Notes under the pieces: generated by a model
Told to the model about the DNA's origin: nothing
Seen by the model: the letters and a program-made list of their open reading frames with translations, nothing else
Databases searched by the model: none
Program-made: the position numbers and the translations under genes
Assembly: GCA_031763025.1 (NCBI GenBank)
Contig: JASSKH010000026.1
Span: 7,676,408 to 7,740,407 of the forward strand
Direction of reading: 5' to 3'
DNA: 64,000 nt
From: Macrocystis pyrifera
Lineage: Eukaryota; Sar; Phaeophyceae; Laminariales; Laminariaceae
Part shown: positions 1,766 to 55,998 of the stretch, in pieces
Position numbering within the stretch: position 1 is the first letter of the stretch
How the letters are laid out: each line of letters starts with the position of its first letter

Positions 1766-2694
1766 GTTTCGGAGCCCATTTTCTTCGAAGCATGCCTTAG
1801 GGGGGGACACGCACAACGAAAATAATGGCATTGCAAAAACAAACTTCATCGAAGAGGTCTGCCGATAGAGGCGCATCGCTCGGTGTATAGCAGTTGCATG
1901 CACTCTCTCCGATGTTGCCGAAGAAAACCACCATGACAAACTCGTCCGAGCGAGAGAGGGTGCGCGGGGTACCTGGTAGCTATTCACGGCCCGTGTTCAG
2001 CTCAGCTACGGTACCGGCCTTCCAAAGAAGCAAACCAGGATGATACAGCGCCCCCAGACTACTACAGTAGATATTATCTCATTCGTTTTTTTTTTTTCAC
2101 GCGTGCTACGACAGGGGCAGGGGTACCATGTGGCACTTTGTGGCCAACGTATTTGTGACTGAAGGGAGACTCCTACTGTAGACTGAGCAACTACCTGTTC
2201 CTGTTAATAGTATGAAAAAGTAGAAATAATTCCCCCGCGTGACGGACAGACACAACGATCCAGATTGTCGACTGTGGATCCCATATCTCCCCGCAATACT
2301 GTAGGTTGTTGTGTGCAGGGTCTGTCCAGTAACCATACACCCCAGGGAACACGTGCTATGTATTTGGTACCAGGTAAAGTGTAGATTATGCTAGTCATAC
2401 GCTCCGTTCCCGGCTACAAGAGCTAGGTCACGGTACAGAGCATTTATCTATCTGGTCTGAAAGATCTAGATCACGAGGTGGGGATCCGTATGGGAATCTG
2501 TTCCATATGATTGTGTGGATGCTTCCCACTACAGTACCGGTTAGGGCTAGGTGGATCCACACAAAAAACCCTTTCTTGATGGTTCGGCGCACTGCCCTGC
2601 TGGAGGAAGTCGGAAGTCAAGACAAGCACGCCGAGACCCCTCGCTTTGGAGTTTTTGTTTGTGTTTGCATCAATCATCAGTTTACGTTATATTT
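1766..2694. other. Unassigned non-coding stretch
   Basis: No convincing coding frame or known repeat. It contains two copies of the 9-bp palindrome TACCWGGTA (1970-1978 and 2368-2376). Confidence 0.4.
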
Positions 2695-3090
2695 GTTGCA
2701 GTGCTGGTTCCGTAATATAGACAGACGACTGCTTGGTACGCACCATTCGGAGCAATGATCGGAACAGAAACGCGTGTTGTTGCAGTGTTCGGGTACCGTG
2801 ATAGATCAACAACTGCGTGGTACGCGCCGTTTGGAGCGATGATGATATCTCGATTGACATGCGCTCCAGAAGAGAAACGCGTGCTGTGTACGGTAAAGCA
2901 CCAACAACTGCTTCGTACGAGCCATTTGCAGCGATGGCGATGCCTCGTTTGACCTGCGCTTCAAAGGAGAAACGCGTGTTGTTGAAGTGCTGGTACTGTA
3001 ATACATCAACAACTGCTTGCATATGGAGCGATATCCTATATCTCGGTTGACATGCTCTTCAGAACAGAAATGCGTCTCTCTACGATAGGG
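2695..3090. repeat. Minisatellite, about 110-bp unit, four divergent copies
   Basis: Units share GAGAAACGCGTGTTGTTG, GTGCTGGTACCGTAATA-ATCAACAACTGCTTGGTACG and ATTTGGAGCGATGATGATATCTCG-TTGACATGCGCT. The copies are diverged and differ in length, and frames across them are not conserved, so a coding role is unlikely. Confidence 0.65.
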
Positions 3091-3503
3091 CATGCCTTAC
3101 GAGCAGTTTTTGCCCTCCAAGACAATATTGCTGACTGATTATTAGCATATACTCCGAAACCGAGGAACTACCCACAAAGGAATCTTTTATCCTGCTTGTG
3201 CTGCACAACGTTTTTTTCCCCCTTTCTTTCCATCCCGTTCGTTATCTTCGCACTCCTTTTCTCTCTCTACCCAAGTAGTAGCTCAGATCCGGGGTCACAA
3301 AGCATGCTCTTATCCCCCCTCTCTACTACGTTACGAGCCTTGCACTTCTGTCGCGAGAAGACTGCAGCCCTTTCTCCCCTCGCCAACTCGCGTCGAATTC
3401 TTGTTCGTTACACACCCGGGCCATGGTATGTTGTTCATCGGGGTAAGCCTACGTATTTCGCCAAAGTTGGTTTGGGCGAGGTATGTAGTCCCGTAAAAAA
3501 TAC
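3091..3503. other. Unassigned stretch
   Basis: A T/C-rich region with an open frame (3196-3525) that runs into the adjacent MITE. No family or regulatory element is recognised. Confidence 0.3.
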
Positions 3504-3505
3504 TA

Positions 3506-3610
3506 TTACGGGGGGCCTTAGTTAAACGGACCAAATATTGTCAGTAAAAATACGGAAATATATACGTTTTTATCTATACCATAGGTCCTACTAACTGTGG
3601 TCCCCCGTAA
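3506..3610 (+). mobile_element. 105-bp MITE, copy 1
   Basis: Ends are TTACGGGGG and CCCCCGTAA with TA on both outer sides (3504-3505, 3611-3612). Subterminal inverted similarity continues (TTAGTTAA...GGACC against GGTCCTACTAACTG). It matches copies at 7528-7632 and 9954-10058, all exactly 105 bp. A TA target and short inverted ends fit a Tc1/mariner-type (Stowaway-like) non-autonomous element. No transposase source is seen in the window. Confidence 0.8.
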
Positions 3611-3612
3611 TA

Positions 3613-6954: not shown

Positions 6955-7525
6955 AGTGGCGTCGGTGGGTGCTGCACCCACAACGTTGCGGTCGGGGACT
7001 TTTTTGCTGAATGCACGCTTGAGGCTGATATGTTATCGGTGTGGTCCACGGTAAATCATTTTTGCGTCGACATAGTTTAGTGCTCCGGCAGTAATAGAAA
7101 TCTTATCTTGGGAGGGTCGGCAACTGGTAAAACCAGGAGCCGAATTTGTTCATCTCTGACCCTCGAAATATACGCATACTATGGTGGCGATGGCGTCGAG
7201 TTACTAGTGAGCGTCATGTATGCGAGGTGGATATATATATATATATATATATATGCAGGCCTTGCTGTTGAGTGTGGGCAACTACTGCTCCTGAGAAAGA
7301 TGGCAGCGTAAAGCTCGTTTGGAATTCATGGTTGCTTGCGATCTCCTTTTCCCCAGACGCCCGTGAGCTTAGCTGATCCACATGTCTCTCGTCCCGTGTT
7401 TCACCGTCCCGCTAGAGGCAATCCTCATGGCAGCCTGAAAATATTAATATGCCCAATTCAATGATCCTGGTAGACGACTGAGTTGAGGGGGAGGCTCGAC
7501 CAGCCCTTCCATATACCCTATTACC
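6955..7525. other. Unassigned stretch
   Basis: Contains a (TA)n tract at about 7231-7253. No coding or repeat family recognised. Confidence 0.35.
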
Positions 7526-7527
7526 TA

Positions 7528-7632
7528 TTACGGGGGACCATATTAATTATAACGAAATACTGTTGGCAAAAATAGGTAAATATATAGGTTTTGGTGTGTA
7601 CCGTAGGTCCTATTTACTACGCCCCCCCGCAA
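7528..7632 (+). mobile_element. 105-bp MITE, copy 2
   Basis: Starts TTACGGGGGACCATATTAA after TA (7526-7527) and ends CCCCCCCGCAA, a decayed inverted terminus. The internal GTGTGTACCGTAGGTCCTA is shared with copy 3 in reverse. Length equals the other two copies. Confidence 0.75.
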
Positions 7633-7639
7633 TGGTACA

Positions 7640-9951: not shown

Positions 9952-9953
9952 TA

Positions 9954-10058
9954 TTACGGGGGACCACATTAAGTAGGACCTACGGTACACACCACAACTT
10001 TATATATTCCCTTTTTTTACTGACAATATTTGGTCTTAGTTACTATGCTCCCCCGTAA
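9954..10058 (-). mobile_element. 105-bp MITE, copy 3
   Basis: Flanked by TA (9952-9953, 10059-10060). Ends are TTACGGGGG and CCCCCGTAA. Reversed, it aligns over its whole length with copy 1, including ACCAAATATTGTCAGTAAAA. It has the best-preserved termini of the three. Confidence 0.8.
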
Positions 10059-10060
10059 TA

Positions 10061-12239
10061 GTAGCTAGTTTTAGCCCAGATGATCTACGTGCACCGAAAG
10101 CTGCGAATGTTCCTCCCTCGCAGCTGCAACTTCTCTCAACTGCCCTCTTGCTACTATTTCCTGGGGGGGGGGGGGGGGATACTAATAATATGAGTGATCA
10201 GAACCTCCAATGGGCCCAAAAAACAGGTATCTCCTCATGTTTACACACTATACTCGGTCCTGGTTACCACGGGCAGTATGTTCCCCCGTATACACTATGC
10301 ATCTTGCCTCGTTGCATGCAGAGGCATCGCCAGCCATGCTACAATCTATTCGTAAGGGTGGTAGACTTTTCGGAGCGGAAGTGTTTTGTGATTTGGCTAA
10401 TTGGCTGAGCTCTTCCAATCGGCGGTCGAGGAACTACCCAATGCTGTCTCTGTTTACGTGTTGCACCATCGATTGTGTTCGTAATTGCATAAGAGTAGCC
10501 CATGGGGTTGTTCACCGGATTGCGCTTGCAACGTTTCCACACGTCGGTCGGACATATTATCTACAGACATAGCATGTACAAATAGATCGTCTACAGATCG
10601 ATCGTCTAGATCCCAGCCTGCCGTTATGATATGTCGTGCAGGATCTGCATGGTGCAGATCCAACCCAGGAAACCTGCCCTAAATCCTGCAGATTAGACGG
10701 CTCGCACCCGGTCGCATGGGTTACATATATAATACAGATCATAAATCTATCTGCCCTGAATGAGCTATATCATGATCTGTAGATGGTCTGTCTGTCCGAG
10801 TTGTGAGCGTTTCCTAAAGTCGTTGTTTTGGGTCAAGGTATCTTCCTAGGAACTTGAGAAATACTGTTCGTAGGTGCCTGCTCCCTGTACAGCAGCAGCG
10901 TGATTCTAGCCGACAACAAGAGCACCCGACGCGCCCCGACGAAAACCTGCCCGGCGGAAACTTGGCTCTCGGGCATTGATTCATGCAGTTGCGTCTCCGA
11001 TATCAACATGCCGATCACGGTACCATTTTATCGAGCTGCATTTACAGTTTTAATTCAGACCGACAATGCTGCACCAACTTTCTTACGTTCATTTTTGGAC
11101 ACCTTCACGGGGGAACGGACCATTCTGGAAACCGACGTCCTTCGCCTCCCCCCCCCCCCCTCCCCCAACTGTTGTTGGAGGTGTCTCTAATAGGAGTAGG
11201 AACGGTGCTCCGTCTCGATCGGGAGGCGTGGTCAACAGTCCAATGACTAAGGCAAGCAACAAATGAGTACCTCCCCATCTCCTCGCGATGCATGTTTTGG
11301 CCGAAAGTATTTGTGACTTTTCTTGGCTTATTCACTCGTTTGGGACCGCACCCCCGTTGTGAGGACAAATCACTTGGAATTAGAGTCAAATCTAGGTACA
11401 TGTACAGTGCGGTACTAAAAGGGTTAGAAGCGAGGAAAAACTACCCAATATCGTTGGAACACCATTTTTATGTGCTGCATGCTAATCGTGGTATTACCTA
11501 GGCCCTCGTGTTGAGCTTTCGTGTTTTCTTGCAAAGAAGGGCAGTTTCTGGGTGATTTTGTCATATGACTGAGAAATGTTAATAGGATGCTGCTCAAATA
11601 AGAAGAGCCCCCAGGAACACTGCACACAGGCGCACCCTCCATCGTAGCAACGTGTTTCTGACACCTCGACTTAAACCCATTGTCTGGGGACAAACTGCTT
11701 GGAGCTACTTCAAGTAATGCGGTTCGTTTTTTGAGGTATTAACGGCAGCCCCGTAAGCCGTGCGCTGACACAGGAAACCGGTCCACTTTTTCAAGGTGGA
11801 AGACCCCGCAAAATAACCAATTTTCTATTGATAGTCTGCTTTCCTATTCCCCAAAACGTGTCTTCTTTACTTCCAAATAATTTCCCCCCAAACCATGTGA
11901 GCACTTCCAAACGGACTGTTAACAAGGCCAGCCTTTGGTTCCAAATCCATGGGCGCACTATAGCGGACGCCAACGTTGGCAGTGCTGCACGCCCCCCGCT
12001 TAAGACAATCACCCGCGCTCCCCATGCCTCCGCGACCCGGACTCCCCCCAGTCCCTTACGAGAAGCCCGGCAGCAGGCAGCTATTAATGTTTGGCGGATC
12101 TCATCGAGAGGCAACCACCACCATCATGCCATCAGCGGAGCCACGGGCTGCAGACGACCGAGCTCCAAAACTCTGGTCCAACGCTCGCCCGCCGCCGGTC
12201 TCCGCCCTTCTTGCTTGCTCGCTGTCACAGTCGCGGGAG
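10061..12239. other. Unassigned stretch
   Basis: Short conflicting frames only. Homopolymers occur at about 10165-10178 (G) and 11151-11160 (C). The plus-strand Arg/Pro-rich frame at 11,828-12,577 overlaps the minus-strand transposase remnant and is treated as its shadow. Confidence 0.3.
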
Positions 12240-12935
12240 GTTCGCGCCGAGCCCCCCTCCCCTCCATGTACCGCGAAAAAAGTGTACAGGATAGCACACG
12301 CGTCGATGATGACGGGGAGCGTGGTCCAGGACTAACAATCAGCCCGTTCTGGAGCGCCCGAAACCTGGACCTGAGGCGGTCGAACGCGTGCTCGGCCCGG
12401 AACCTCGTGTTGGAGTGCTTGCAGTCGAATTATCTCTCCTCTCGAGTCCCCGGTGCGGCGACCGGCGCCTGCATCCACGGCGTCTCCGCAAACCCAGAGC
12501 CACCCAGAATGTACGCCCCGATCACGAGTAGTTTGCGTTTCCCGGCCGGTTGGCCCCTCTCGCCCCCCATGTCTTGATAGAAGCTGGTGCAGGATTGGAA
12601 GGCGCCACTTCCTGTGCAAGAGCCGGGGGCCCTGGAGGCGAACCAGCGGGACATGCCGGCGTTGTTGACGACGATGGCGACGAGAAGAACCGACAATATT
12701 TTTTTGTGTCGTGGTGGTCGTCGTAAGGCACTGCTTTCTGTGGCTCTGGTGGGTGTATCCGGATGTGGCTGCCGTCGATTGCGCCGATGACGTTCCTCCT
12801 GCCCGTGCGAGCAGGAGGATGGTGGCATTTGCAATGGTGACATGATCTACTGGCTGTGGATGAAAATGTGCCGTTTTCCACCGGTACGTAGTGCGCCGGA
12901 AAAATAAGCACCACATTGTATGCACAATACGCCAA
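12240..12935 (-). pseudogene. PIF/Harbinger transposase remnant
   Basis: Minus-strand frames carry hallmarks of the Harbinger (DDE_Tnp_4, HARBI1-like) transposase. RRNVIGAIDGSHIRIHPPE holds the first catalytic Asp near 12,775. A second block (VIGAYILGGSGFAETPW) occupies the usual place of LLGDSAYPL..PW, and the expected second Asp reads Gly. The third block (HSNTRFRAEHAFDRLRSRFRAL, near 12,345-12,410) keeps the Glu, and IDACAILYTFF matches the usual C-terminal helix. The blocks lie in different minus-strand frames, so the gene is frameshifted at least twice. The preserved length, about 220 codons, is shorter than the usual 350-450. Terminal inverted repeats were not found. Confidence 0.75.
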
Positions 12936-16205: not shown

Positions 16206-16731
16206 CTCCTTCGTTTGAGTTAATGTGAGAACACCACCAACAACAAAGTAAGTAGCATGGGTGCCCGTACAGCAGTACCAGGTACGGGTTTTACATGTGT
16301 ATGCATGCCGCGTACGATTCTGTCCCAGAATACAGGAATATATCCGGTAGAACATAAGAAAAGACCAAATCTGAAGCTGCAGAGGTCAAGGAGAGAGTGG
16401 TGTGTGTCAATCTTTTCGAACCTAGTTGATATTTTTTTCAATTTTTAATATAGTCTAGGCGGAACAACTTTTTCCAGAAGTTCGACATTCACAAATTGAA
16501 TTGTTTTGACGTGGTCACTTACGTTCAGAAGGCATGAAATATATTGCCAAAAAGCTCTGTCTGCTGTTTCAGACGGATCGAACCATCATTGTTTCATATT
16601 TTTTGTTTTCGTCGTTGCGTCGGAGTATTCGTTTTTCCGCCAAAAAATGGTTTAGAATTTGTAGATCGACACAGACAGTTGTCATGTTTGTTTTTTACAT
16701 CGGTTTTGAACGTATCGCGTCCAGGCGTTAA
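16206..16731. other. Unassigned stretch
   Basis: AT-rich, with one TACCAGGTA at 16,276-16,284. Nothing else recognised. Confidence 0.35.
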
Positions 16732-29153: not shown

Positions 29154-29850
29154 ATCTGTGAGTTCGACTGGTTAATAATTGAATAGTCGATACCCAATTT
29201 TGCGAGCTGGGTAATACGCCTGCTACTATATTCTATACCTGGTACGTCTTTCATTTATAGATGGGAGTTGTGCACAATTTATGATAGCATATGTATTCAT
29301 ATAGGAATTACTATTGAAGTTTGGTACAACTCGAAATTTCTTCTTTGATTTCGTAATTCGTGATGGAAATGGATGGTAACAGACGACCACGAATGCTTCT
29401 TGTAGGGGAAGAGGCAAGCTATGTCCGCCGGAAGCGGTGTCACGACGGGACGGAACGATAATTCCTACGGGAGAGATTTTACCGGCGGGACGGGACGGTA
29501 ATTTTTCGGTGTCACGACGGGACGGGACGGTAATTGTTCGGTGTCACGGCGGGACGGGACGATAATTTATCGGTGTCACGGCGGGACGGGACGGTAAATT
29601 TCTAACGGGAGAGATTTTACCGGCGGGACGGGACGGTAAGAGACGACGGTCAGGGATTTTGTCGGCGGGACGGGACGGGACGGCAGGACCATTTTCACGG
29701 CGGTTTTACCGTCCCGTCCCACCGTTACCGCCGTTACCGTCCCGCGGAAATTACCGTGATTAGCCTTGGAAATAACGGAAAACACGCGAACGGTTGTCAC
29801 GCAATTTGCAAAGCTGAGTATCGACCGATCGGTTGAACTCACAGCTGACC
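29154..29850. repeat. R4-bounded element with a GACGGGACGGG minisatellite core
   Basis: R4 (CTGTGAGTTCGACTG...TCGATACCCAATTTTGCGAGC) at 29,154-29,231 and its inverse (TTGCAAAGCTGAGTATCGACC...TCACAGCTGACC) at 29,797-29,850 bound a core of units GGCGGGACGGGACGGTAA separated by 20-40 bp. The core also has a self-complementary stretch near 29,670-29,745. The same core occurs in reverse at 50,643-50,800 and inside the 49.4-50.6 kb array. A fold-back or MITE-like element is inferred. Confidence 0.55.
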
Positions 29851-33362: not shown

Positions 33363-34811
33363 TAGTATTATAAAAAGGTTTTTACATCCGTACGATCGCA
33401 CATTATTCATGCTGACTGCAAAGTATGTTGTCTTCTTTCATATTCTATAATATGCAGCAGTATCTTCAGCATACCGAGCGGTATCACACAGCCTCAGTTT
33501 ACTCTTGGCAGGTACCCCGTATAATTCTGTCCACTACGGCGAGGAAGGGAGCAATGAGATAATTACTGCTGTGCATGAGCTTCGTACGATACTATTATTG
33601 TTGTACTTCTCCGTCCATGACCAAAGATTCGATTGAAGCATTATTATCTGCTGTACATTACGTTAATAATGTCCGCACAGAAACACAAAGATTATACCAT
33701 GGTATTTATTAGGGTTCGACCTTCTATATGCCCTGAAAGAGTTTCGTTGGTTTTGATATGGTTGGCCTATTCTTTTCATCTAAAGGCCCACGTGGTCCAG
33801 TGTATCGCTTCTGTTTTTAGCGTTGAACCATGGAGCTCGAATCTCAAGATGGATGAGGCGGGGATTCACGCAATATATAAAATAAAAAAGTGTGGAATCA
33901 ACTGCTGAGATCGCCTAACGAGTGTAGGCGCAACGAAGAACTGAAGCATTTCCGCAATAAAACCCAAGGCACAGACCACATCGGGGAGAGGAATAAAGAT
34001 CTTGCTGTGTGACACCGGATGTCTATACGTAGGAGGGATAGAGAAAAAAGGGCGAAGATAACAAATGGGATGAAAATCAATGATATATCTGTATCGTACA
34101 TACATAACTACGTACGAAAAAAAATATAAGGTACCTGGTGTGAAAAATCAGCAAACGCGTACGAAGAAACACTGCATGGTCGGTGGGCGTAGAGGGGTTT
34201 CAAGATCGGTTTGGTTTGAAGAATACACTGCCTGTTGTTAGGTCCACACCTTGGGTAAGTATCATCTGAAGATTGGGTTGTCCGAGAACGAATCTGGCCA
34301 GCAGGTAAACGCTTTAAACTCCGAGAGTGTGGGGTGGTCAAATACATACTACCAGGTATTGTAGTACGCATGTTCTGACACTATAACAATAGCTCAAAGT
34401 CCTGAAATCCCGCCCGTGGTCACTAAACAGGCTGTAAAACTAAAGTGCGTCGCGACTGGAGAAAACTAACAAGTACGAAATAGTGCCGAATCGGTAGGTG
34501 AGAGAAACGGTATTAACGACCTGTCCGATATGGTGTGTACATCCCGCATCAATTGCAAATGAATAACACCATGAACGTGTCGATGCTATTACATGTACAC
34601 CCAGCATAGAGCATAGAGCGGGCAAGAACTTTGGACATCGTGCCGAAAGGACCCCGGATCGTCGGCTTCTATCATGAGTGCTTTGCCTGCAGGAATTGCG
34701 ACTGCTCTCCCAGAACTGATGCATGCATCCTAAGCGGTGGAGTCGAGATACACTATTCAAACCAAACTGAGCAGAGAAAACCTGGCCTTCTCCGATGGTA
34801 AAAACCATTCC
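33363..34811. other. Unassigned stretch
   Basis: Mostly AT-rich with no supported gene. One TACCAGGTA at 34,350-34,358. Short frames on both strands look accidental. Confidence 0.35.
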
Positions 34812-35594: not shown

Positions 35595-36720
35595 GAGTAA
35601 TTATTAAAATGTACCAGGTATGTTCTTAGTTCTGAGAGCAACTGGAATGATTTTCCGATTGATTCTGACCTATAAACAGCGATGATAGGTTGTCATTTTA
35701 ACGTATTTCGGTATATAATGTACTGCGCTGTAGCGCGCATGCATGGACTGATGCTAATAATCGAGACTCCAGAAAAAAGAACGAGGAGTTCTTTGCTCGC
35801 ACGGGCAACACCATTGGAGAAGTGGGGAGTGACAATCGCGCCGAAAACATAGCGGAGCGCCGCGACTATCGTGCGTTGGAGCGACGCCATGACGGTGCTG
35901 CCCGAGCGCGCGACGAGGCTGTGGCCACATGTACTGCTGAGACCGAAGCCCGCCAATCGGCCGCTGATCCTACGTTTTTATATCCGATACGAAGGTTTTT
36001 CCCTACCAGTATTTTCCAAAAAAAAAAAAAAGCTTTCTTGGTCTTCCTGAACTGCTTCCAGGCTTTTGGGCTTTGTGTGGTCTATAGTGATGAAAAAAAA
36101 TGATGACGTCTGCTGTCAATTTTCTTCGTTGTAGTTCGCCGAAAAAAAAACGAAATTCATCTCGGCGAACAACGGTCAATTACTGGTACCGGCTATAAAA
36201 GGTACCTAAAGTCAGGCGCAGAGTTGGCAAGTACGCGTAGATGCGGATATTATTATTGATATGTATGTTCATCCCGAAGCAACAACCCACTCCAAGCAAT
36301 ACATCGGTAGCGCCTGCCGTTTTGCCCGCCCATCATCGGTGGTTTGAAGTCACATTGTTCGGCACATATCAGAGACAAGAAGTTGGAAGGAGGGAGAGTC
36401 GTATGCGCCGTTGATCTTTTTTCGGCTCCCGCCACGCCCACCTTCTTCGTCCCTGCCGAGCGAAAAAGACGAGACACAAATAAAAAAGCCGACAAAAAGT
36501 GTTTTAGGTTTTGCCGCGCGCCTGCCCATCCATACTACAGCAGTACGTACTACGAGGTACCTGGTAAACCGTTTTCTTCTGAGACCAGCTCGCAGTCATC
36601 ATGCCGGGAGTCGCATCATTTTCGGCGGTAGCGAATCCGCTTTTTTGTTGGGTCTCTTATTCCGCACTGGGAGCTCCTTCTACTTCTGCGACTACCACAG
36701 CAGTGACTGCTCCTACTACT
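35595..36720. other. Unassigned stretch
   Basis: Includes TACCAGGTA at 35,612-35,620 immediately after the LINE fragment, and TACCTGGTA at 36,558-36,566. No gene supported. Confidence 0.3.
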
Positions 36721-36844: not shown

Positions 36845-37492
36845 GTGAGTCGGGGTAGGTGTTGGGGTAGGGGTTCGGAAAAGGGTGGTACGATGATGTT
36901 GCCTTGTGTATGTATCGTGTAAACAGTTGTTACGGGGTACGAGATACATGAAACCAATTGCAGTACCTAGGACAAGTAGCGGTAGCGTCGTTTTCGCACG
37001 GGTCCCGTCAAGTATTTGTTGCGCTTCTGAAAGTACAGGTACGAACGACCCCCCTCCTCCCCCAACAAGCCGAAGTGTCCGTGTTGCAAATAAATGCTAT
37101 TTGGGGGTCAGAGCAAGCTACTGTTTACCAGGTACTTTTTGCAGTTGAGTCGAGTTCACAACTGCTGTGCAGAACGAGATAATTTCCAAGGAAGATTGCT
37201 TCGCTTTGTATATGCTTGATGTACACGTACTGCGACTATGACTAGCCTAAAAACAACGTGAAGCTAGGTGGTCGGGGGGTGGGGGGGTGAATTAGCTCCG
37301 TGGTCCCCCAGCATCATGTTTTGATGTTGAATTCAATTCCTGGGTTGCGACGGTTTACTTCTTCGTGCATCCGACGAGTTTTGACCGTTCCACGATTTCT
37401 GACCGTTGACGGTTCGCGCTTCGCGTTCACGGTCTGCGGCGGCTCCTGCGGATGGCTATTTATATTTCTGCACCTTAAGGGCATAACACGTG
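36845..37492. other. Unassigned stretch
   Basis: Contains TACCAGGTA at 37,126-37,134. No gene or repeat family seen. Confidence 0.3.
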
Positions 37493-41486: not shown

Positions 41487-41701
41487 AGCTGATTGAGAGT
41501 GGAGATGACCCTCGCGACTACTCGTTCACGACACTTTTCATCGGACATAAAAAGCTGCCTGTCGAACTCTCGGCGTTTTGTCGGTGTACGTATTTGTCTG
41601 TTGGACGCAAAGTGACCACTGAGTCGGACATTGATATACAAGATGTTTTGGTCTCAGTTAGCCGTACCTGGGGCAGGAGGCTGCGGGACGACTTTAACAT
41701 C

Positions 41702-42647: not shown

Positions 42648-42721
42648 GCTGTGGCCAGCCTATCCGCTCCCTCGACTGCCCATGTAGCGCTCTCTGATGT
42701 GGTGGTGTACCCGTTCCGCAT

Positions 42722-42936
42722 GAGGGATGAACTCCTTGGCGTCGGGGTTAAGAAGACAAAAACATCACCACCACCCCACGTGATCCTTAAAGCGACCAGG
42801 CCACAGCCGGACCGCCCAAGGCACCCTCTCTACCCAGCCCGAAGCTCGATGTTCGTGTGACTGTCGTTAGACCGTTTCAAGTCCTGCCGGACTTCGTCGG
42901 CCCACCCCAAGGACGGGACAGGCCGAAGAGTACGCA
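42722..42936. other. Spacer between divergent LINE copies
   Basis: Between the 5' end of L5 and the first recognisable RT block of L6. It may be 5' sequence of either LINE; no match elsewhere in the window was found. Confidence 0.4.
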
Positions 42937-43642: not shown

Positions 43643-44596
43643 CATAGATGCATAGTCGAAGACCTTAGGGAGTTCCGAGCCACCGAAGGGTCAACGGAAC
43701 TCTCCCCCTTGGTGTTTGGAGTTGAGACCGCGCTGTGGCCCATTGCTGCAAAACAGGCGGGGAAGTGGTACCGGGGGATCCTCGAAGCAGCCGAACGGTT
43801 CATGGTGAGGTGGCACGAGGCTGAGGCTGAGCCGAGTAGGCAGCGCATCTGCCGTGGGTGGTGTCCAAGGGAGTGGGGGCAGGGGGAGCAACAAGAGGAG
43901 TGGCAGAAAACCCGACCAAGGGAATGCGGAGAGGGGGGGGAACAGGAGTAGAAGGGAAACTGCAGTGGACGAAAGTAGGAAGGAGATGGCAGACAGGGTA
44001 GCAAGGTACCGGACAGACTAGAAAGTAGAACATGCCTATACTGCTCGCGCCACGAACTGGTGCAGCTGGTTCGAACATGGTCTTCCTTTGTCTTGGCTGT
44101 TGTTTTTGTTTATTTGTGTTTCATTTTATTTTCTTTTTTTTGGGCTGACCCTTCTGTGATTTTCATTTCTTTTCTTTCTCCCTGCTCCTATTGATAAGCC
44201 TTATTGAAGGAGTGGTGTGGCGTGGGTGGATGACGAGCCTGCTTTTCTTGTTTCGTATTGTCTGATGCCGAGGCGCCGGGCATAGTTGACGAACGCCGAA
44301 CGGAGGCGGCAGACCGGGAGGCAAGGTACCAGGCGGACTAGGAGGGAGATCCTGGCTGTGCTACTCGTACCATAAACTGCTGCCGCCACCTGGAGGATGC
44401 TTTGTGCGTTGGTTTACCTGTTTTTTTCCCTTGGTTCTTAGTCTTACTCTGTTGACTACAGTAGGGGTGTTTTTCTTCTTCCTTTTTCCCTGTTCGTTCT
44501 TTCAAGTGTCTGCCAGATCCCCTTTTTTACTCATCCCTTTCACTTTCCAGCCTAATTCGCAAGAGGTTTTACCCTCGACGACCTTCTGGACAAGCG

Positions 44597-46517
44597 TAAT
44601 AGACCGCTTCGTGCGGGGGATGGCCTCGTCGCTATGGCCGCGACATGATGTCGGGTGTTGTGCAAAGACGTGTAGAAGATGTTAATAAATATTTATTACT
44701 CGTTGCTGTCGGGAAGGAGGGAAACAAAAGAGAGAGTGAGCTGTGATGCGTCACTCTTGTTCCCCTCTCCCAAATCATGTATTCACCTCCGTATTTGCCA
44801 AAGTTCTACAATTAGTCCTTCTCAATCACTGGGAACTTCCTAGAGCCATCCTGTATTACCAGGAAGTCAATCCAGTCTCATACTACATCAAGGAGTATTG
44901 TTCGAACCTTATCTCAATATCGGAATTCCGTACTCTCTCCCGTCAGAATAACCCATCCAATAAATAATCAACCGTTTACTCGTACGTGCCACACGTATGA
45001 CCCACTGATGTTTGGCTCATCCGCATACTATTCGATCAACGTATCCTATAAATCAACCACATGCTACAGAACATCGTGCGACCACAATATCTATTCAATG
45101 TATTGATCACATAGTCTTTGAGCCCCCCTGACCAAGGACATTGAAATATTCAACCACTTGATTACCTTGTTGATGAGCCCCCCTTAACAGTGGCATCATT
45201 ATATTCAACCACTTGGATAATGTTTTTTTTTTACAAAAACAAAATGATAATCCCAATAGGTGACCCAAACCACTCATTTCATGTCCGAACTCCTATAATA
45301 TACCATGTCAATCAGCGCCTCTAATCAATGATATAGTCCACGTCGTTCTAAAATCACTCCAATTTTGTTTTTAGGATATGTGAGACGGACGAGTTCATTA
45401 GGGATTACTTTTCAGAAAGGTTCGGTAGGGGGGCTAAATCTGCAGATTTTTGCTGACGCAGACTATGCTAGTAAAGCAGCTGACAGGAGGTCAATTTCTG
45501 GGGGGTTAGTGATGTGTGGTGGTGCATATGTGTCATGGTTTTCGAGGACTCAGAAATGCGTCACGCTTTCCACAACGGAAGCAGAGTACGTGGCACTTGC
45601 AGATGTAGCAAAGGTGTTATTTTGGAGGCAGGTTTGACGCTTTATGTTACCAAAAGTGGGGATGCCATGCATACCGGTGTTCGAGGACAATGAGGGTGCA
45701 GTGCAACTTGCACAAAACCCCATTACCAACTCCAACTCCAAGCACATCGACGTGCGACACCATTTTCTCAGGGAATTGGTTGGGAGGAAAGAGATATCGA
45801 TCATCCACGTGTCGTGACCTTTTCAGCATGCGGATTTTCTTACAAAAGCAATACCGCGTGAGTCTTTTGATTTTCACCGTAGCATTACCATGAATACATG
45901 GTGGCAACCAGTGTTGTTTTTGTTCATTTTGGGGTATTGAAGTTTTTGTTTGTTTGTTGGGGAGACACTGGTAGTGTGTTTTGGTGTGTAGTTTAAAAAC
46001 ATGAGATTTGGGAATCAGTATTTTGGATTGTGGCCTTTTTTTATTTTTATGATATCATGATGAATAGGATTTCGGACTATGAAATTCGGAAATGTGTGAT
46101 ACTTGATATACTATGCGGTAGACTTATTCGACACTACTTTACTCAGCTGATGACCGTTTAACCGGGAAGGCCAAGTGTCGTTTACTGGGACGATGTTGAA
46201 GTTAAGAGATGAACAATACTCCTTGAGGTAGTATGGGACTGGATTGACTTCCTGGGAATACAGGATGGCTCTAGGAAGTTCCCAGTGATTGAGAAGGACT
46301 AATTGTAGAACTTTGGCAAATACGGAGGTGAATACATGATTTGGGAGAGGGGAACAAGAGTGACGCATCACAGCTCACTCTCTCTTTTGTTTCCCTCCTT
46401 CCCGACAGCAACGAGTAATAAATATTTATTAACATCTCCTACACGTCTTTGCACAACACCCGACATAATGCCGCGGCCATAGCGACGAGGCCATCCCCCG
46501 CACGAAGCGGTCTATTA
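44597..46517. mobile_element. 1.92-kb element with 307-bp terminal inverted repeats and 5-bp target duplication
   Basis: Left arm 44,597-44,903 starts TAATAGACCGCTTCGTGCGG. Right arm 46,211-46,517 is its reverse complement at about 98% (roughly six mismatches). AAGCG stands on both sides (44,592-44,596 and 46,518-46,522) as a target-site duplication. The interior holds a Ty1/Copia RNase H fragment and two similar stretches (GAGCCCCCCTGACC..., GAGCCCCCCTTAAC...) near 45,120-45,225. No transposase is recognised. Ends lack TG...CA, and LTRs would be direct repeats, so a non-autonomous inverted-repeat transposon with captured sequence is the simplest reading. High arm identity suggests recent activity. 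Confidence 0.8.
45365..45900 (+). mobile_element. Ty1/Copia RNase H fragment (fossil)
   Basis: Carries the classic Copia RNase H signature: IFADADYASKAADRRSISGG, VSWFSRTQKCVTLSTTEAEY, the ED-NEGAVQLAQNP block and SNSKHIDVRHHFLREL. Only the 3' end of pol is present. It may be followed by an LTR-like start (TGTTGGGGAGACACTGG, near 45,956). Broken, with a small number of disruptions. Embedded between the two inverted arms of the 1.92-kb element. Confidence 0.85.
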
Positions 46518-47312
46518 AAGCGGTGGTCACAGGTGTCTTGCCTTCCCCCCGGTACGTGCCTTTATTTTTTATCGCGCATAGGGTTCAGCATTCCCACTAC
46601 TCGTCGATTTTCATCGAATGTAGCTAACTCACGCTCTCGCGCTTTCCGCTAGTCAAATCTCTTTTATGCAAGAAAAAGCCCCTACGAGCATGCACTCGGT
46701 GAGACTTGAACCCACGAAATTGATTTTGATAGGCACGCGGACCACCTACCAAAGCCTCCGGGGACGGCACTGCCGGGGGGGCACAATGGTTTCTTTCTTA
46801 TATGTATATATTCTTGTTTCTTTTTCTCTTTCGAATTGTCTTTCTTTTTTTTTTGTTCTCGTTGTTTCGTTTCGTTTCTCTATTTCATGGAATGCGTATG
46901 TCGTGCATGTTGTGGCATTGCATTGCCCACTGTCGTTACTGCATACGTGACAACGTAGTATATCTGTGGCATAGTTTTGTGACCACATAACTTGTTTTTC
47001 TCTAGGATTGAAGAGTCGGCACGGACACTGGTTGTGCTGGATGTCGACGGGTAGAACGAACGGTTTAATGTGAAGAAAACAACAGTACACAAATTCATGA
47101 AAAATATACCAGGTACGTTGTGCGGAATTTCCACTGGTAAATCTACGCGCATGCCATCCAGAGATAGTGCGTACGACTAATTTATGAGGTTCATCAATTG
47201 GTAGATTGAGCACCAAAACATTTTGACCAAAACGGTGAAGTATGTGATGTTTATGCAAACAGGGATGCTAATTCACAATCATACATTTACCACTCACCAC
47301 ATTAATTTCAGG

Positions 47313-47648
47313 AAAACCTAAAATATATCAAACCAATCAAAGTTTACAACCTGGTATTAATAGAATTCCATTCTAGTGATAACCAGTACACCAACCGTGA
47401 TGCTGAGCATGCACAATTAATTCCCCATCATTTTCCCAATACCCAACACCAATTTCAGCTTCCAGTCTATCAGACAGAACTCCTTGTACCTGGTACAATC
47501 AATGCGGTGGAGTCTACCAGGGAAGTGGTGAAACTAAACAGTAAAGATGACTGGAGTTGCTCGTATACCACTCAAATCACAAATGTTCCCAGTATAAAAA
47601 CCAGACCAGAGAAAGATGAAGAATGCATTCCTTACTCTACCTTATAGG
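47313..47648 (+). other. Exon-like open stretch, AT-rich, unrecognised
   Basis: After an acceptor-like TTAATTTCAG, 112 codons are open without stops to TAG 47,646-47,648 (KVYNLVLIEFHSSDNQYTNR, VVKLNSKDDWSCSYTTQITN). It has no internal ATG. The minus strand also has protein-like pieces (47,080-47,258: NVLVLNLPIDEPHKLVVRTI), so the coding strand is uncertain. Base composition differs from the GC-rich candidate genes, suggesting a transposon or retroposed origin. Confidence 0.25.
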
Positions 47649-48977: not shown

Positions 48978-49437
48978 TCCTGCTGGAAGTGGCCTTGCGG
49001 GTAGTAGTGGTCGCTGTCCTGCGGTTGCTTTCGGTACTGCTGCTGCGGGTAGTATTCTGACGGGTAGTAGTGGTCGCTGTGTCTCTGTTGATGATACTGG
49101 TCATAACGTTGCTGCTCTTGCTGCTGCTGCTACTGCTTCTGCTTCGGCTCCTGCTTCTGTTGCTGCTGTTCATCGTATTCCGCCATATCCTCGAGATTCT
49201 GCCATCCTTCGGCAGTCCAATACCCTACCCGACGACTGCCTTTTCCTCGTCGCCATCGCGCTGTTTTTGCTTCGCGAGTATGGCTTTTATCCAAGGAATG
49301 TCGACGGCGTCAGCAGCCACCTCAAATCCCATTGTTTTGCAAGCTCTCACCGGGTCTCTCTCAGCACGGTGTCCAGTAGCGGTCCATCCCTACGTTCGCC
49401 CTCTCGCAAGAGCTATCTTGACTTTAGGTCCCGCTAG
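48547..49437 (-). pseudogene. Upstream part of the Gln-rich gene, frame-disrupted
   Basis: Minus-strand segments that look coding appear in successive frames: CKTMGFEVAADAVDIPWIKA with ILAKQKQRDGDEEKAVVG (near 49,230-49,340), then GYWTAEGWQNLEDMAEYDEQ and a Gln/Tyr-rich stretch (SDHYYPSEYYPQQQYRKQPQ) with one in-frame TAG, then MRVLDDMSEESKKALKDYTM with KQRREAMQKHMERRVQRQ (48,547-48,762). Shifts occur near 49,228, 48,750 and 48,490, the first and last in G-rich runs. Either a pseudogene, an unresolved multi-exon gene, or sequence errors in homopolymers. CAG/CAA runs make the Gln tract length-variable. Confidence 0.5.
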
Positions 49438-50642
49438 TGTAAGGGGATAACCTGTGCGCCGGGTGTTGCGCCGCTCAACCTCGCCATGAGCCGCGGGAGC
49501 AAAAGAAGAGATGTCGCTGTTGCTGTTGTTGATATTAGTCGCCGATGAGTTGTTGCTATTTTTGTCGTCGATGAGTTGTAGTTGAGTTGTAGTGATTGAG
49601 TTGTAAGGTCAAGGGGGCTCTTGGCGAATTTTTCAAGGCTTATCACAGTAATTTCGGCGGGACGGTAACGGCGGTAACGGCGGGACGGGACGGTAAAACC
49701 GCCGTCAAAATGGTCCCGCCGTCCCGTCCCGCCGACAAAATCCCTGACCGTCGTCACTTACCGTTCCGTCCCGCCTGTGGAATCTCTCCCATTGGAAAAT
49801 TACCGTCCCGTCCCGCCGTGACACCGAACAAAGGTCCCGCTAGTGTAAGGGGACAACGTGTGCGCCGGGTGTTGCGCCGCTCAACCTCGCCATGAGCCGC
49901 GGGAGCAAAAGAAGAGATGTCGCTGTTGCTGTTGTTGATATTAGTCGCCGATGAGTTGTTGCTATTTTTGTCGTCGATGAGTTGTAGTTGAGTTGTAGTG
50001 ATTGAGTTGTAAGGTCAAGGGGGCTCTCGGCGAATTTTTCAAGGCTTATCACAGTAATTTCGGCGGGACGGTAACGGCGGTAACGGCGGGACGGGACGGT
50101 AAAACCGCCGTCAAAATGGTCCCGCCGTCCCGTCCCGCCGACAAAATCCCTGACCGTCGTCACTTACCGTTCCGTCCCGCCTGTGGAATCTCTCCCATTG
50201 GAAATTACCGTCCCGTCCCGCCGTGACACCGAACAAAGGTCCCGCTAGTGTAAGGGGACAACGTGTGCGCCGGGTGTTGCGCCGCTCAACCTCGCCATGA
50301 GCCGCGGGAGCAAAAGAAGAGATGTCGCTGTTGCTGTTGTTGATATTAGTCGCCGATGAGTTGTTGCTATTTTTGTCGTCGATGAGTTGTAGTTGAGTTG
50401 TAGTGATTGAGTTGTAAGGTCAAGGGGGCTCTCGGCGAATTTTTCAAGGCTTATCACAGTAATTTCGTCGGGACGGTAACGGCGGTAACGGCGGGACGGG
50501 ACGGTAAAACCGCCGTCAAAATGGTCCCGCCGTCCCGTCCCGCCGACAAAATCCCTGACCGTCGTCACTTACCGTTCCGTCCCGCCTGTGGAATCTCTCC
50601 CATTGGATATTACCGTCCCGTCCCGCCGTGACACCGAACAAT
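49428..50642. repeat. Tandem array, three units of 405 bp
   Basis: GGTCCCGCTAGTGTAAGGGG begins units at 49,428, 49,833 and 50,238, giving an exact 405-bp period with few differences. Each unit joins the start of repeat R2 (GTGCGCCGGGTGTTGCGCCG ... GTAAGGTCAAGGGGGCTC) to the GACGGGACGGG repeat family, including a stable hairpin: GGCGGGACGGGACGG and CCGTCCCGTCCCGCC, about 25 bp apart. Conserved frames of 107 and 74 codons are by-products of the repetition. Confidence 0.9.
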
Positions 50643-50885
50643 TTACCGTCCCGTCCCACCGTGGCACCGAAAATTACCGTCCCGTCCCGCCGTGACACCG
50701 ACAAATTACCGTCCCGTCCCGCCGATAAAATCTCTCCCGAAATTATCGTTCCGTCCCGTCGTGGCACCGCTTCCGGCGGACATAACTTGCCTCTTCCCCT
50801 ACAAGAAACATTCGTGGTCGTCTCTTGCCATTGGGTATCAACTATTCAATTACTAATCAGTCGAACTCACAGATGACGTATTTTC
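50643..50885. repeat. CCGTCCCGTCCCGCC minisatellite ending in R4
   Basis: Four to five units of TTACCGTCCCGTCCCGCCG with spacers GTGACACCGA-AAA. Then the unique GGCGGACATAACTTGCCTCT and an R4-like end (GGGTATCAACTATTCAATTA, CAGTCGAACTCACAGATGAC). This is the reverse complement of 29,390-29,580. Confidence 0.75.
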
Positions 50886-50958
50886 ATCGTCTCGCTTGTA
50901 TACCTGGTCAGTGGTATGAAATTGCTGGGCACCACATTTACTTTTGCTAGAAAAAGCT

Positions 50959-52170
50959 GTGCTGGTAGACTACCAACACTAAGTGTTGATCAGCAGCTGG
51001 TTGATGATTTGTTTCTATATTTTACTTTCAAATGATGGTAAGTACAAATATTACCATCTACGAAAAGGAATGAAAGTCACTATTATACCAAGTAATAAGT
51101 GTATATTTACCTGGTGTTGTTTTTTCTTTTCATTTTTTTTAAAAGGATCTTCATACTTAATATTTCCACTCGCAACTGAAAGCAGAGTATCATAACACAA
51201 CACCTGCCACAGGCTCGCCACCACACACAAACAGCAGAGACCACTCAACTCACGATCACACCAGTACTGGTGTGGCCCAAAAATATTTCAGGAGACATGC
51301 CATAAAGCGGGACGCAAAACGTGCGCTGTCAAGGATGTAGGGCCGGGTGTTACACATTGATCTGTGCTGGTAGACTACCAACATTAAGTGTTGATCAGCA
51401 GCTGGTTGATGATTTGTGTCTATATTATATACTTTCAAATGAAGGTAAGTACAAATATTACCATCTACGAAAAGGAATGAAAGTCCCTATTATACCAAGT
51501 AGTAAGTGCATACCTGGTGGTGTTGTTTTTTCTTTTCATTTTTTTTAAAAGAATCTTCATACCAGGTACTTGATATTTCCACTCGCAACTGAAAGCAGAG
51601 TATCATAACACAACACCTGCCACAGGCTCGCCACCACACACAAACAGCAGAGACCACTCAACTCACGATCACACCATTACTGGTGTGGCCCAAAAAGATG
51701 GAGACATGCCATAAAGCGGGACGCAAAACGTGCGCTGTCAAGGATGTATGGCCGAGTGTTGCACATTGATATGTGATGGTAGACTACCAACATTAAGTGT
51801 TGATCAGCAGCTAGTTGATGATTTGTTTGTATATACTTTCAAATGAAGGTAAGTACAAATATTACCATCTACGAAAAGGAATGAACATAACTATTATACC
51901 AAGCAGTAAGTGTATACCTGGTGGTGTTGTTTTTTTCGTTTCATTTTTTAAAAAAGAATCTTCATACTTCATTCATATTTCCACTCGCAACTGAAAGCAG
52001 AGTATCACAACACAACACCTGCCACAGGCTCGCCACCACACACAAACAGCAGACACGACTCAACTCAGGATCACACCAGTTCTGGTGTGGCCCAAAAAGA
52101 TGTCAGGAGACATGCCATAAAGCGGGACGCAACACGTGCGCTGTCAAGGATGCAGGGCCGAGTGTTACTT
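50959..52170. repeat. Second tandem array, three units of about 405-409 bp
   Basis: Units start at 50,959, 51,364 and 51,773 with GTG-TGGTAGACTACCAACA. Each contains CAACACTAAGTGTTG and CACACCAGTACTGGTGTG palindromes, and CTGCCACAGGCTCGCCACCA. Units differ by small indels; unit 2 has an extra CCAGGTA forming TACCAGGTA at 51,560-51,568. No coding frame is shared by all units. Confidence 0.9.
51560..51568. repeat. TACCAGGTA palindrome, insertion allele in array unit 2
   Basis: Unit 1 reads CTTCATACTTAATATTTCC and unit 2 reads CTTCATACCAGGTACTTGAT. This fits a 7-bp insertion (CCAGGTA) at a TA with the TA repeated. One of at least 13 exact TACCWGGTA sites in the window. Confidence 0.8.
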
Positions 52171-52296
52171 ATTGAAACCTACCAGGTAGTAGTTTGGTGT
52201 CAGTCAAAGCATGCCAATGTCAATGCAAAGTTGCTGTCTGTCATGGAGTGAAAGTGCTGTCTCCTAACATCTTTGGTGCGACCGGCACGGACGCCA

Positions 52297-52640
52297 TGGA
52301 TGCCTATTTAACGGCCGGGGTCGATCGACCAGCAGCGGCACTAGAATCACCACCGCCGCCGCCACCACCTCCACCTCCACAACCACCAGTAACACAGCGC
52401 AAGCACAACCATCTGTCAGAACAGCCACCATGAGCTGGCAACGCAACAACAGTGCTTGGGGCAGGGGTGGAAGAAATCAGAAGACGTCGTCCGTGTAGTG
52501 GCAGCACTTCTCGAGGCTTGGGCTTCGCGGGTCGAGAAGAAAACGTCTGCATCGGGACGGCTCCCTTCGCGAAACCAGTGTACGGGAATTTTCTTCACGT
52601 ACAACCGCGCCGACCTTGCGGCGAAAGAGAAGAAATATAC
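52297..52640 (+). other. Candidate coding remnant, Pro-rich start
   Basis: ATG 52,297 (context CGCCATGG) opens MDAYLTAGVDRPAAALESPP with a Pro run, ending at TGA 52,431-52,433. In a neighbouring frame a protein-like segment follows (QGWKKSEDVVRVVAALLEAW, RLPSRNQCTGIFFTYNRADL) up to the minisatellite at 52,640. One frameshift or a small intron would be needed to link them. No family recognised. Confidence 0.25.
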
Positions 52641-53185
52641 ATTTACCGTCCCTCCCCGCCGAAGAAAAAGAAAATTACCGTCCCGTCCCGCCGTGGGAAA
52701 AAATAATTACCGTCCCGTCCCGCCGATGAAAAAATATTTACCGTCCCGTCCCGCCGAGGAAAAAAATATTTACCGTCCCGTCCGGTCGAGAAATTTGGCA
52801 CCAGCTGTCCCGTCCCGTCTCGTCCCGCCAACGTTTTATGTCCTCATTTTACCGTCCCGTCCCGTTTTCATTTTGTTTTCCCGCCAAACGAGTCAAATCT
52901 ATCCCGTCCCGTCCCGTCATGATTCTCAGTCACTGTGAGCCGATGAAAAAATATTTACCGCCCCGTCCCGCCGAGGAACACAATATTTACCGTCCCGTCC
53001 CGCCGAGGGGAAAAATTTTTACCGTCCCGTCCCGTCGTGAAATTTGGCACCAGCTGTCCCGTCCCGTCTCGTCCCGCCAACGTTTGATGTTCTCATTTTA
53101 CCGTCCCGTTTTCATTTTTTTTCCCGCCAAACGAGTCAAATATATCCCGTCCCGTCCCGTCACGATTCTCAGTCACTGTGATAAG
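52640..53185. repeat. CCGTCCCGTCCCGCC minisatellite, two larger units
   Basis: Two units of about 215-240 bp (from 52,726 and 52,941), each with several TTTACCGTCCCGTCCCGCCG motifs, GAAATTTGGCACCAGCTGTC, CGCCAAACGAGTCAAAT and GATTCTCAGTCACTGTGA. It ends GATAAGCCTTGGAATTTTTC, the same edge seen inverted in the 405-bp array (49,629) and near 29,757. Confidence 0.8.
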
Positions 53186-55998
53186 CCTTGGAATTTTTCG
53201 TGTACCGGGCCAGCTTTTAATTAGTTTAATTTCGGGGGCGAAGCCCGCGAAAATTCTTGGAAACCCTGTGCTGTACGTAACTGGGACTGTACGCAGTAAA
53301 CGAGAATAGACAGGGCTCTGCGGTGCGAGGATACATCCGCTCTGCGCTTCGATATCACGTTCGTTGCCGACTGCAACTGTAGGGTGTTCTCACTGTTGCC
53401 GGTAGCCGTCGCTGTGCAGTGAGCACTCTGCTGCTCAAATGGGCTATTCTGGCGATATCTTTACTGTTGGTATTTGGAAGAGCGATATATCTACGTACAT
53501 CAGTACTGTAGTCCTCGACAACGAGTTTCATCGCGAGAGCAGGTGGTACGACGGCAATAAGTCGTAAGGAGATTGCGCTCTGGCGCACTCGTCAATATGC
53601 GAAGGATACTATATTTTTTCATCGGGAAGGAGCCTACTGGCTGTATGTACATACATGGCATACAGCAGTAGTAGTAGTGCACATGTACCTGGTACGATAA
53701 TACGTAGGCGCGGCTACTCTCTACTTTAGAGCCATCCCACAGTAGGGGTGTTCCCGGCGTTCCTGAGTCCCTCACATTAGAAACTCGATATTTCACCCGA
53801 TACAATACTCGGAAGAAATTCGTTCGGGCCATCCGACCGGCACTTGTATGCGCTAGTCCCAAAACGAACATACGAGTAAATTTTTCATCCTACTGTAACT
53901 GGTATTTCCTCACTTAAGGAACTCAATTGGCCAGAAACCTTTCGCCCAAAAAATGCAACATCTACCGTGGGGTGACTCTTTACCTGGAGCGAAGACGGCA
54001 CCGTGCAGGTTCATAAATAAATGCAGAAGTCGCAGATTGACAGGACAGATATAGTGGTCGTACGAGTATATAGTCTGGCACCGGTAGCTTTGTTTTTCGT
54101 TGTAACGCGCACACTTGAAGTTTACAGTGGTAGTAGTGTGCATAATTTAGCTACCTGTTGTGTTATTATTTTGTTAATGATATATCACACCAATAATGGC
54201 ACACGAGCCTTGTGCTACCGTAAATATTGCCGGTGGTGAATGCAACGCACATATATGCATATGCAAGCTTTGTACCGGTTCTATGGCAGCCTGGATGATC
54301 TGACTCTGTAGGTTCCCTAGTTGCCACAAAAAGCAAACTACTTCTTGGCCTGCTTTACAGCCTTAAGCATGTATCAACCACAACGACGCGGCATCGATGC
54401 CGAAGAGATGGACTGAGATTTTGCAAAAGGGTTCTGCAGTAGATCCACTGTCGGTTATCAATAGGCCGCGAATGGAATCGGCATTCCGTTTCCTCTTTGG
54501 TAACGACGCACCGCCAACAATTCCCCCTCTCACACAAACACTGTCAACATCATCGCCTTTCCCGCCCGCCACATCACCCCCTTCCCCCCCTAACATCAGC
54601 ATCCCATATCATGCTCGCTAGCCTCCTGAACCTCTGCGCTGTGTCTTGCGCGAATAAAGACACACAGCAATGGACTAGCTTGAGCAACTTCTGAAGCGGG
54701 GACTCTTGGGAATATGGTGCCCTCACTGAAAGCCAACCCGAAACTAACCTGTCAGCCATCAACATTCGCTTAGCCAGCTTCTTGCAACATCGGTTCCGCG
54801 TGCTCTGCCGTCTCGGCTGGGCAAGTATCAACTTTGGACTTGTCTGTTGGCTGGACGGTTGTGAAGTGACGTATTCCTGTCTGACTGCCTGCGAACGGCG
54901 CGAACGAATCCGATCACAGTGAGGACGCAAGGGGTGATGATACCAGGCTTTAGTACCCGCTCAGAACTCAAACACGATCGCCGCGAAAGAAAATGGCACA
55001 GAGGTAGAGTACGTGCAGGCACGCAGTTTATAGAGAGTCGCAAAACTGGTGCAGACGTAGCGTCAGTAATCCATACCCAGTTAATTAATGGTGTTCCGTG
55101 CCTGTCGCACAGACACGAACGAACGCAGCACATTATCGAGAAGTTGGTGCTCGACCGTCCACAGTTCCTATATTCGGCGCTCCGGCCTCTTCACAATCTA
55201 CTGCGTCAGTGTGCTCGTCCCTGCCACCTCAAACTTACGATAGCGTACACGTTTTACAGTATCCAAACTCGTACTAGTCTAGCTGACATTCCGCGCGGTA
55301 ACTAGCCTTGCCTAAAACACGGTACATATCTGGGTTATCCTTGAAACCCACCGTGTAAAGATAGGGTGGAACCACCCGGGTGTAGCTTCCTGCATATCGT
55401 ATATTGGTCATTGTGCGTAGAACCTTATTAAGAGCAACTTCGGGGGCCTATGTCCCCGCGTTTTCCCAGAAAAATCATGGGAAAATCAGGATCTACCACG
55501 ACCCTTGCGAGGACTCGCTCGAGCTTACTACCTGCTAGGGGCGCATAGCGAACGTCTGCAAATGAAGTACGAGCGAAAGCAACCTATACGACGATGGTGC
55601 TGCGTACTTGGGTATATTGCAACGCTCACCTGTGTCTAGCATCTCCCCCCTTTCGACAACAGCAGTACGGGTTACAAGACGTTATGACAAAACACCCAAT
55701 AAACCGTGCACACAAAACAGTTTGACGATGGTAAATGCGCGGAGGGGAGTTTAAGGGGTGTAATTCATGGGTGATCTTCAGGAAACGAAACCGATATATC
55801 CAAGTCGTGTTTCTATATTGACGTAAGCTTTCACTAAGTGATGCTTGCGTAGTACGGTCGTGAGAGATTACTGTTTATAGTCGCCTTGGGCGAGCCTTGT
55901 GTAGTGCCGTACACACACATTACCGCTAACTGCGAAATAATCGAGCCATCATGTCAATGATATTTCCTCGTGAAAATAGTCCCCCTCCACTGGCAAGA
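53186..55998. other. Unassigned stretch with unsupported frames
   Basis: Frames at 54,574-54,930 (minus, 118 codons, KLAKRMLMADRLVSGWLSVR and LLKLVHCCVSLFAQDTAQRF) and 54,919-55,305 (plus, 128 codons) are the longest. The minus one looks somewhat protein-like but neither belongs to a recognised family. TACCTGGTA at 53,686-53,694. Confidence 0.3.

Follow-up and report, generated by a model that had tools for sequence, protein, structure and literature searches.

Why should a single nine-base palindrome, TACCWGGTA, recur 13 times within 64 kb of DNA, at places that are otherwise unrelated in sequence? We address this question for a stretch of contig JASSKH010000026.1 (positions 7,676,408 to 7,740,407; 64,000 nucleotides), referred to here as the window, within which all positions below are counted. 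Our best explanation, to which we give a somewhat better than even chance, is that a TA-targeting, cut-and-paste transposon of the Tc1/mariner type with CCW-type ends left the copies behind as excision scars. The unusual part is that one palindromic product is found at 13 unrelated sites.

The word is genuinely over-represented. The original prediction had listed 13 copies by their start positions and judged them a large excess over about 0.5 expected; all 13 were recovered as exact matches at those positions (13/13), and the expectation came to 0.3-0.6. Under Markov models of orders 0-4 it was 0.34-0.57, and dinucleotide shuffling gave a mean of 0.36 and a maximum of 2 copies (100 shuffles). 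Among the 512 classes of odd 9-bp palindromes tested, TACCWGGTA ranks first and the runner-up has six copies; when the 400 top-ranked 9-mers were re-counted for unrelated contexts, it was second only to poly-C/G. The excess is therefore real and strong, and corresponds to a density of approximately one copy per 5 kb. Both the A and the T forms implied by the W are present (8 A and 5 T on the plus strand), although W is not a free base, since TACCTGGTA is the reverse complement of TACCAGGTA and the two are the same odd-length word in two orientations. A single copy of the S-centred form is present, at 31473. The claim that no copy lies inside the Gypsy block also stands, with none between 16284 and 29236; a copy-free block of the 10.7 kb assigned to it earlier has a chance of 0.09, or 0.03 when the 4.5-kb long interspersed nuclear element (LINE) block is added.

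What the excess depends on was examined by taking the word apart. The CCWGG core alone is present at expectation (136 occurrences vs 133). For TACC-N(k)-GGTA with k from 0 to 12, where 1.2 occurrences are expected at each spacing, 14 were counted at k = 1 (13 of them with W), four at k = 0 and zero to three at the others. From the core and spacing counts together, the signal amounts essentially to a single exact product flanked by TA on each side; TACCGGTA is a possible minor companion of this dominant product. These counts bear directly on one of the three explanations originally offered, a modification site. The core of the word is indeed CCWGG, so that a modification or restriction context comes to mind, yet CCWGG shows no frequency bias and the excess appears only in its TA-bounded copies, which leaves this explanation scarcely tenable. 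Near-copies had been reported as well, and those with one mismatch do exceed expectation (21 vs 12.1; the 413-bp array described next holds five). As a group, however, they lack the flank signature of the exact copies (9/34 arms, after 4 of the 21 had been dropped), and many of them are thus probably chance matches.

How a copy arises can be followed in a tandem array of three units of about 413 bp. The original prediction had described a word in unit 2 where unit 1 is empty; this is correct in substance, although the array concerned is the ~413-bp one at 50958-52175 and not the 405-bp one at 49426-50641. The site reads CTTCA-TA-CTTAATATTT in unit 1, CTTCA-TACCAGGTA-CTTGATATTT in unit 2 and CTTCA-TA-CTTCATTCATATTT in unit 3. 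Units 1 and 2 differ at 17/389 sites, and unit 3 differs from the other two at 32/390 and 27/388. Since units 1 and 2 resemble each other most and the word is absent from unit 3 as well, the simplest course of events is one gain in unit 2, of 7 bp and with the TA repeated. The suggested micro-insertion, put to the paralogue alignment proposed as its check, is supported by this gain and its polarisation through unit divergences. In keeping with a duplicated TA at the boundary, the excess is limited to TA-flanked copies and unit 1 shows a single TA. Judged from these alignments, insertion at TA is seen once and fits the remaining copies. In a broader comparison of paralogous pairs (n = 66), which held 45 gaps of 4-40 nt (both counts redundant), one gap corresponds to the scar word and one to a change between TA and TATTAATA. 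The latter word, which has five occurrences in the window, lies at 39764-39771 opposite a single TA in the paralogue at 47079-46846; this 6-bp, TA-bounded palindromic difference can be read in either direction.

The gain in unit 2 could also be sought in local templated insertion or slippage, with CCAGGTA copied from a nearby inverted TACCTGG. Such a template is available in unit 2 at 51511, 49 bp upstream of the word. A 7-mer of this kind lies within 60 bp at only 2/13 sites, however, much as at random TA sites (background 0.086, p 0.31), and local copying would not yield an identical word at 13 places. We consider it highly improbable.

Table 1. Positions of the TACCWGGTA copies and of the units of the ~413-bp array within the window
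Feature	Position	Strand	Basis
Scar word TACCTGGTA	1970..1978		exact match
Scar word TACCAGGTA	2368..2376		exact match
Scar word TACCAGGTA	16276..16284		exact match
Scar word TACCTGGTA, at most 3 bp from the end of a ~98-bp repeat copy	29236..29244		exact match
Scar word TACCAGGTA	34350..34358		exact match
Scar word TACCAGGTA	35612..35620		exact match
Scar word TACCTGGTA, inverted partner of the copy at 37126	36558..36566		exact match
Scar word TACCAGGTA	37126..37134		exact match
Scar word TACCAGGTA	47107..47115		exact match
Scar word TACCTGGTA	47487..47495		exact match
Array unit 1, empty site, single TA at 51154-51155	50958..51360	+	unit comparison
Array unit 2, occupied site	51361..51769	+	unit comparison
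Scar word TACCAGGTA, inside array unit 2, gain of 7 bp over unit 1	51560..51568		exact match, unit comparison
Array unit 3, without the word (has TACTTCATTCATATT), most diverged, outgroup	51770..52175	+	unit comparison
Scar word TACCAGGTA, 5 bp past the end of the 413-bp array	52180..52188		exact match
Scar word TACCTGGTA	53686..53694		exact match

The sequences beside the words had been called unrelated, which is true of their sequence and not of their composition. Anchored all-against-all comparison of the 26 arms revealed no homology beyond chance, the best score being reached in 102/200 random sets. T occupies outward position 6 in 17/26 arms, and a best-score test across 20 positions and 8 base classes was matched by 7/3000 random sets of 13 TA sites. 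At outward positions 3-7, T was counted 59/130 times vs 36.5 in GC-matched TA sites, a value reached by 0/20,000 draws; these positions were picked after the best-score test had been seen, which makes the latter the fairer of the two. A is not enriched over the same positions (31 vs 34), so that the signal is not mere AT-richness. From their base composition, the sites look like palindromic targets with an A-rich side, a central TA and a T-rich side. A palindromic, A/T-biased target preference around TA is a mark of Tc1/mariner-type footprints, and a palindromic target around TA has been reported for the zebrafish element ZB (PMC7913693).

TACCWGGTA is accompanied by a wider excess of palindromes bounded by TA. 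Palindromic cores of 2-6 bp with at least two G/C and TA on both sides were counted after removal of TACCWGGTA and masking of simple repeats; there were 103 vs 51.8 expected (Poisson 2e-10). The ratio for TA, 1.99, is the highest of the 16 bounding dinucleotides, with GT..AC at 1.35 and AT..AT at 1.32. About half of the TA-bounded palindromes are TACGTA, TAGCTA and TACWGTA (24, 13 and 16 sites, respectively). It could be hypothesized that the word and its A-rich and T-rich arms form a palindromic protein-binding site (regulatory, origin or architectural) that is kept by selection. A palindromic word with palindromic arms would suit such a site, and near-copies without arms are what a maintained motif predicts. 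We nonetheless regard it as unlikely: what sets unit 2 apart is the complete word, a single step of 7 bp at a TA with its flanks already in place in unit 1; the inner CCWGG core shows no excess; and the other TA-bounded palindromes would be left unexplained.

Among the explanations first proposed, excision footprints fit best and are partly supported, because the excess depends on TA at either side, one product dominates, the flank is palindromic and target-like, and the excess of TA palindromes is a wider one. A transposon would have inserted at TA, duplicating it, and would later have left, the repaired break being TACCWGGTA. Its transposase would cut one strand at the very tip of the element and the other a few bases further in; each flanking end would then retain a short 3' overhang made of the element's last bases, which end joining would turn into the scar. 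This geometry resembles that described for Tc1/mariner elements, in which the non-transferred strand is cut 2-3 bases inside and the other at the tip, the 3' overhangs giving the footprint (PMC7827188, PMC2170065); for Sleeping Beauty/mariner, these are 3-nt 3' overhangs (PMC7827188). Two routes to the 5-bp core may be envisaged. In route (a), the element ends would be 5'-CCAGG (or CCTGG) and the stagger 5 nt, so that the overhangs anneal by four G-C pairs around a central A.A (or T.T) mismatch; repair would give TA-CCAGG-TA or TA-CCTGG-TA at constant length. In route (b), 2-3 bases from each end (CC, CCA or CCT) would be joined after trimming, as in the scars of plant Stowaway elements. We prefer route (a) because the product is so uniform; annealing CCAGG overhangs would account for both a dominant product and its W centre. 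From the scars we infer the former presence of a larger element, its superfamily, the stagger and how the break was repaired.

Several observations weigh against excision scars. The footprint lengths quoted are 2-4 bp for the superfamily, with 0-3 bp for ZB (PMC7913693), and 0-4 bp for Passer (PMC9976928); footprints so described are short and mixed, and here one product dominates. A core of 5 bp is beyond the 2-4 and 0-4 bp ranges, and within that given for Stowaway/Osmar5 scars, which hold 2-4 bp next to the 5' TA and another 1-2 bp next to the 3' one (PMC1925063). Paralogues span the site for 1/13 copies; the word is absent from both of these paralogues, with a clean TA in unit 1, while unit 3 has an extra small difference beside the site and so serves less cleanly as an outgroup than unit 1 does. 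Since non-palindromic TA..TA cores show a mild excess too (1.12-1.34) and no clear T-arm signature is seen in the other TA-bounded palindromes, part of the palindrome excess may have another cause. Intact elements with TA-CCW...WGG-TA ends had been proposed as the thing to look for, and none with TA-CCWGG ends was found in the 64-kb window by inverted ends, terminal classes or arm comparison. TA-flanked inverted ends (at most three mismatches in 14; 60 of the 88 pairs listed) are not in excess, with 88 pairs vs 99, 125 and 213 for the AT, GC and CG controls. By terminal class of 11-base ends, CCA and CCT together gave 10/452 pairs, somewhat above the overall rate of 0.0125, and most of these ten are the scar words themselves or one array end repeated three times. 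The other inverted-repeat elements in the window have different ends, where these are shown. Pfam scans of most of the window recovered no Tc1/mariner transposase, and the only DNA-transposon match was DDE_Tnp_4. These scans covered both strands outside about 15.0-15.7 and 51.5-53.2 kb, the 57.5-58.7 kb minus strand and 58.7-59.0 kb (in the last two, only the open reading frame (ORF) at 58071-58715 was included), with partial coverage in 20.5-28 kb and 40-44.6 kb. The ratio of 13 scars in 64 kb to not one resident donor is strikingly high, and is the main weakness of the explanation.

The same absence lends some appeal to a palindromic element that spreads by itself. A 7-bp unit would move into TA with no larger element behind it, for example as a processed transposon-end fragment inserted by transposase or repair enzymes. 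No donor in 64 kb, one dominant product and the gain at TA in unit 2 are all what such a unit would give. The target-like flank signature, however, is what an ordinary transposase would leave, and we know of no process by which a 7-bp palindrome spreads itself, so that we find this quite unlikely.

It may also be asked whether the word is a target and not a scar, namely one that is preferred by a PIF/Harbinger (PHIS) transposon with a CWG target duplication, as in the NuwaI group. The word has CWG at its centre and a DDE_Tnp_4 remnant lies in the window. The target of a vertebrate Harbinger element contains ACCWGGT. Extended target preferences are described for PIF/Harbinger elements (PMC2836001), and 5'-CWG-3' duplications for NuwaI (PMC4482050). 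An element does not create its preferred target, though, and excision is usually precise (PMC2836001), so that neither the excess nor the 7-bp gain would be explained. The repeat in unit 2 is TA, of 2 bp, where a PHIS element would leave a 3-bp duplication; NuwaI was found only in animals in the survey cited (PMC4482050); and the duplications reported for Ectocarpus Harbinger elements are ANT or TNA (PMC12477816). This explanation is very unlikely in our view, and excision scars of a Tc1/mariner-type transposon remain the explanation that we favor.

Other observations concern the surroundings of the words and the remainder of the window. An association of the scar words with repeat boundaries was considered and rejected (3/13 within 20 bp, p 0.34). 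The inverted pair of words at 36558-37134 (577 bp, with few extra matching bases) was likewise rejected as an element, as no arm pair beats random arms. The word TACAGCAGTA, with five copies in the window, is found at 16268, 36536 and 53661, about 25 bp or less from three of the 13 scar words. Repeats of ~110 bp at 3501-3612, 7525-7633 and 9952-10063, at least two of which fold back, have ends like TA-CGGGGG...CCCCCG-TA and are possibly TA-type miniature inverted-repeat transposable elements (MITEs). A PIF/Harbinger-type transposase remnant is present at 12328-12684 on the minus strand (DDE_Tnp_4, E 6e-8). A 1.9-kb element at 44596-46517 has 318-bp terminal inverted repeats (97%; TAATAGACC...GGTCTATTA), an apparent 5-bp AAGCG flanking repeat and no Pfam match inside; it sits in a repeat family with further copies at 31601-31914 and 37622-37960. 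At 40027-44480, head-to-head LINE copies form a large inverted repeat with an endonuclease match and a weak reverse transcriptase match (below the curated cut-off). Satellite-like TTACCGTCCCGTCCCGCCG arrays occupy 29373-29772, 49426-50769 and 52629-53181, and are also found inside the array of three nearly identical 405-bp units. Four scans of viral contigs and two of genome contigs returned no relatives; the one match, of 18 bases to a viral contig of which 901 bases were read, was taken for chance. Rfam and transfer RNA scans of the window were empty.

The Gypsy block offers a pointer to the host group. A NADAR domain (PF08719, E 4e-31) in the ORF at 21397-21963 on the plus strand precedes the Gypsy reverse transcriptase (23464-24042), an arrangement described for a Gypsy lineage of Ectocarpus (PMC12477816), which makes a brown alga the likely host. 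The block also has an integrase-like region at 25957-26697, with an integrase core match below the curated cut-off.

If the excision explanation is right, raw sequence would be enough to recognise a transposon family by nothing but its scars and to deduce its cut geometry. To the forms of Tc1/mariner-type excision already known, a uniform palindromic scar of 5 bp would be added, and counting scars would record directly how often elements depart relative to how often they are retained. The excess of TA-bounded palindromes suggests a simple word-count test for any genome. A bolder and rather unlikely version is that a brown-algal TA-targeting transposase makes an unusually long 5-nt stagger and leaves one standard scar per ~5 kb with almost no resident copies. 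Were this true, removal would be near-quantitative and clean, closer to programmed elimination than to occasional excision; together with TACGTA, TAGCTA, TACWGTA and TATTAATA, the scars would make up a legible fossil record in which several transposon families, extinct or hidden, are each marked by a different overhang. The words themselves occur in 217 papers, of which the 20 listed deal with other matters to judge by their titles, and among the hits listed in the literature searches there was no publication on a TACCWGGTA scar.

Compared with known systems, PIF/Harbinger and NuwaI elements share with these sites a palindromic target preference and, for NuwaI, a CWG centre (PMC4482050); they differ by their 3-bp duplication and mostly precise excision, from which no 7-bp gain is expected. 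The Tc1/mariner MITEs of Ectocarpus, such as TcMar-N1_Ec32, are an abundant population of the same superfamily in what is, from the NADAR-Gypsy arrangement, likely the same host group (PMC12477816). Ectocarpus Tc1/mariner elements number almost 12,000 copies, mostly MITEs, the highest count among the DNA-transposon rows in the relevant part of the table, and the words "footprint" and "excision" have no occurrences in the main text of that paper (PMC12477816). Sleeping Beauty leaves a 3-bp core and its donor is known; here the core is of 5 bp and the scar is known without its donor. The scars of Stowaway/Osmar5 hold short pieces of both terminal repeats between two TAs, in a range that includes a 5-bp core (PMC1925063). 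Stowaway/Osmar5 excision gives several non-palindromic scars at one site, whereas here a single palindromic product, TACCWGGTA, dominates across 13 unrelated sites.

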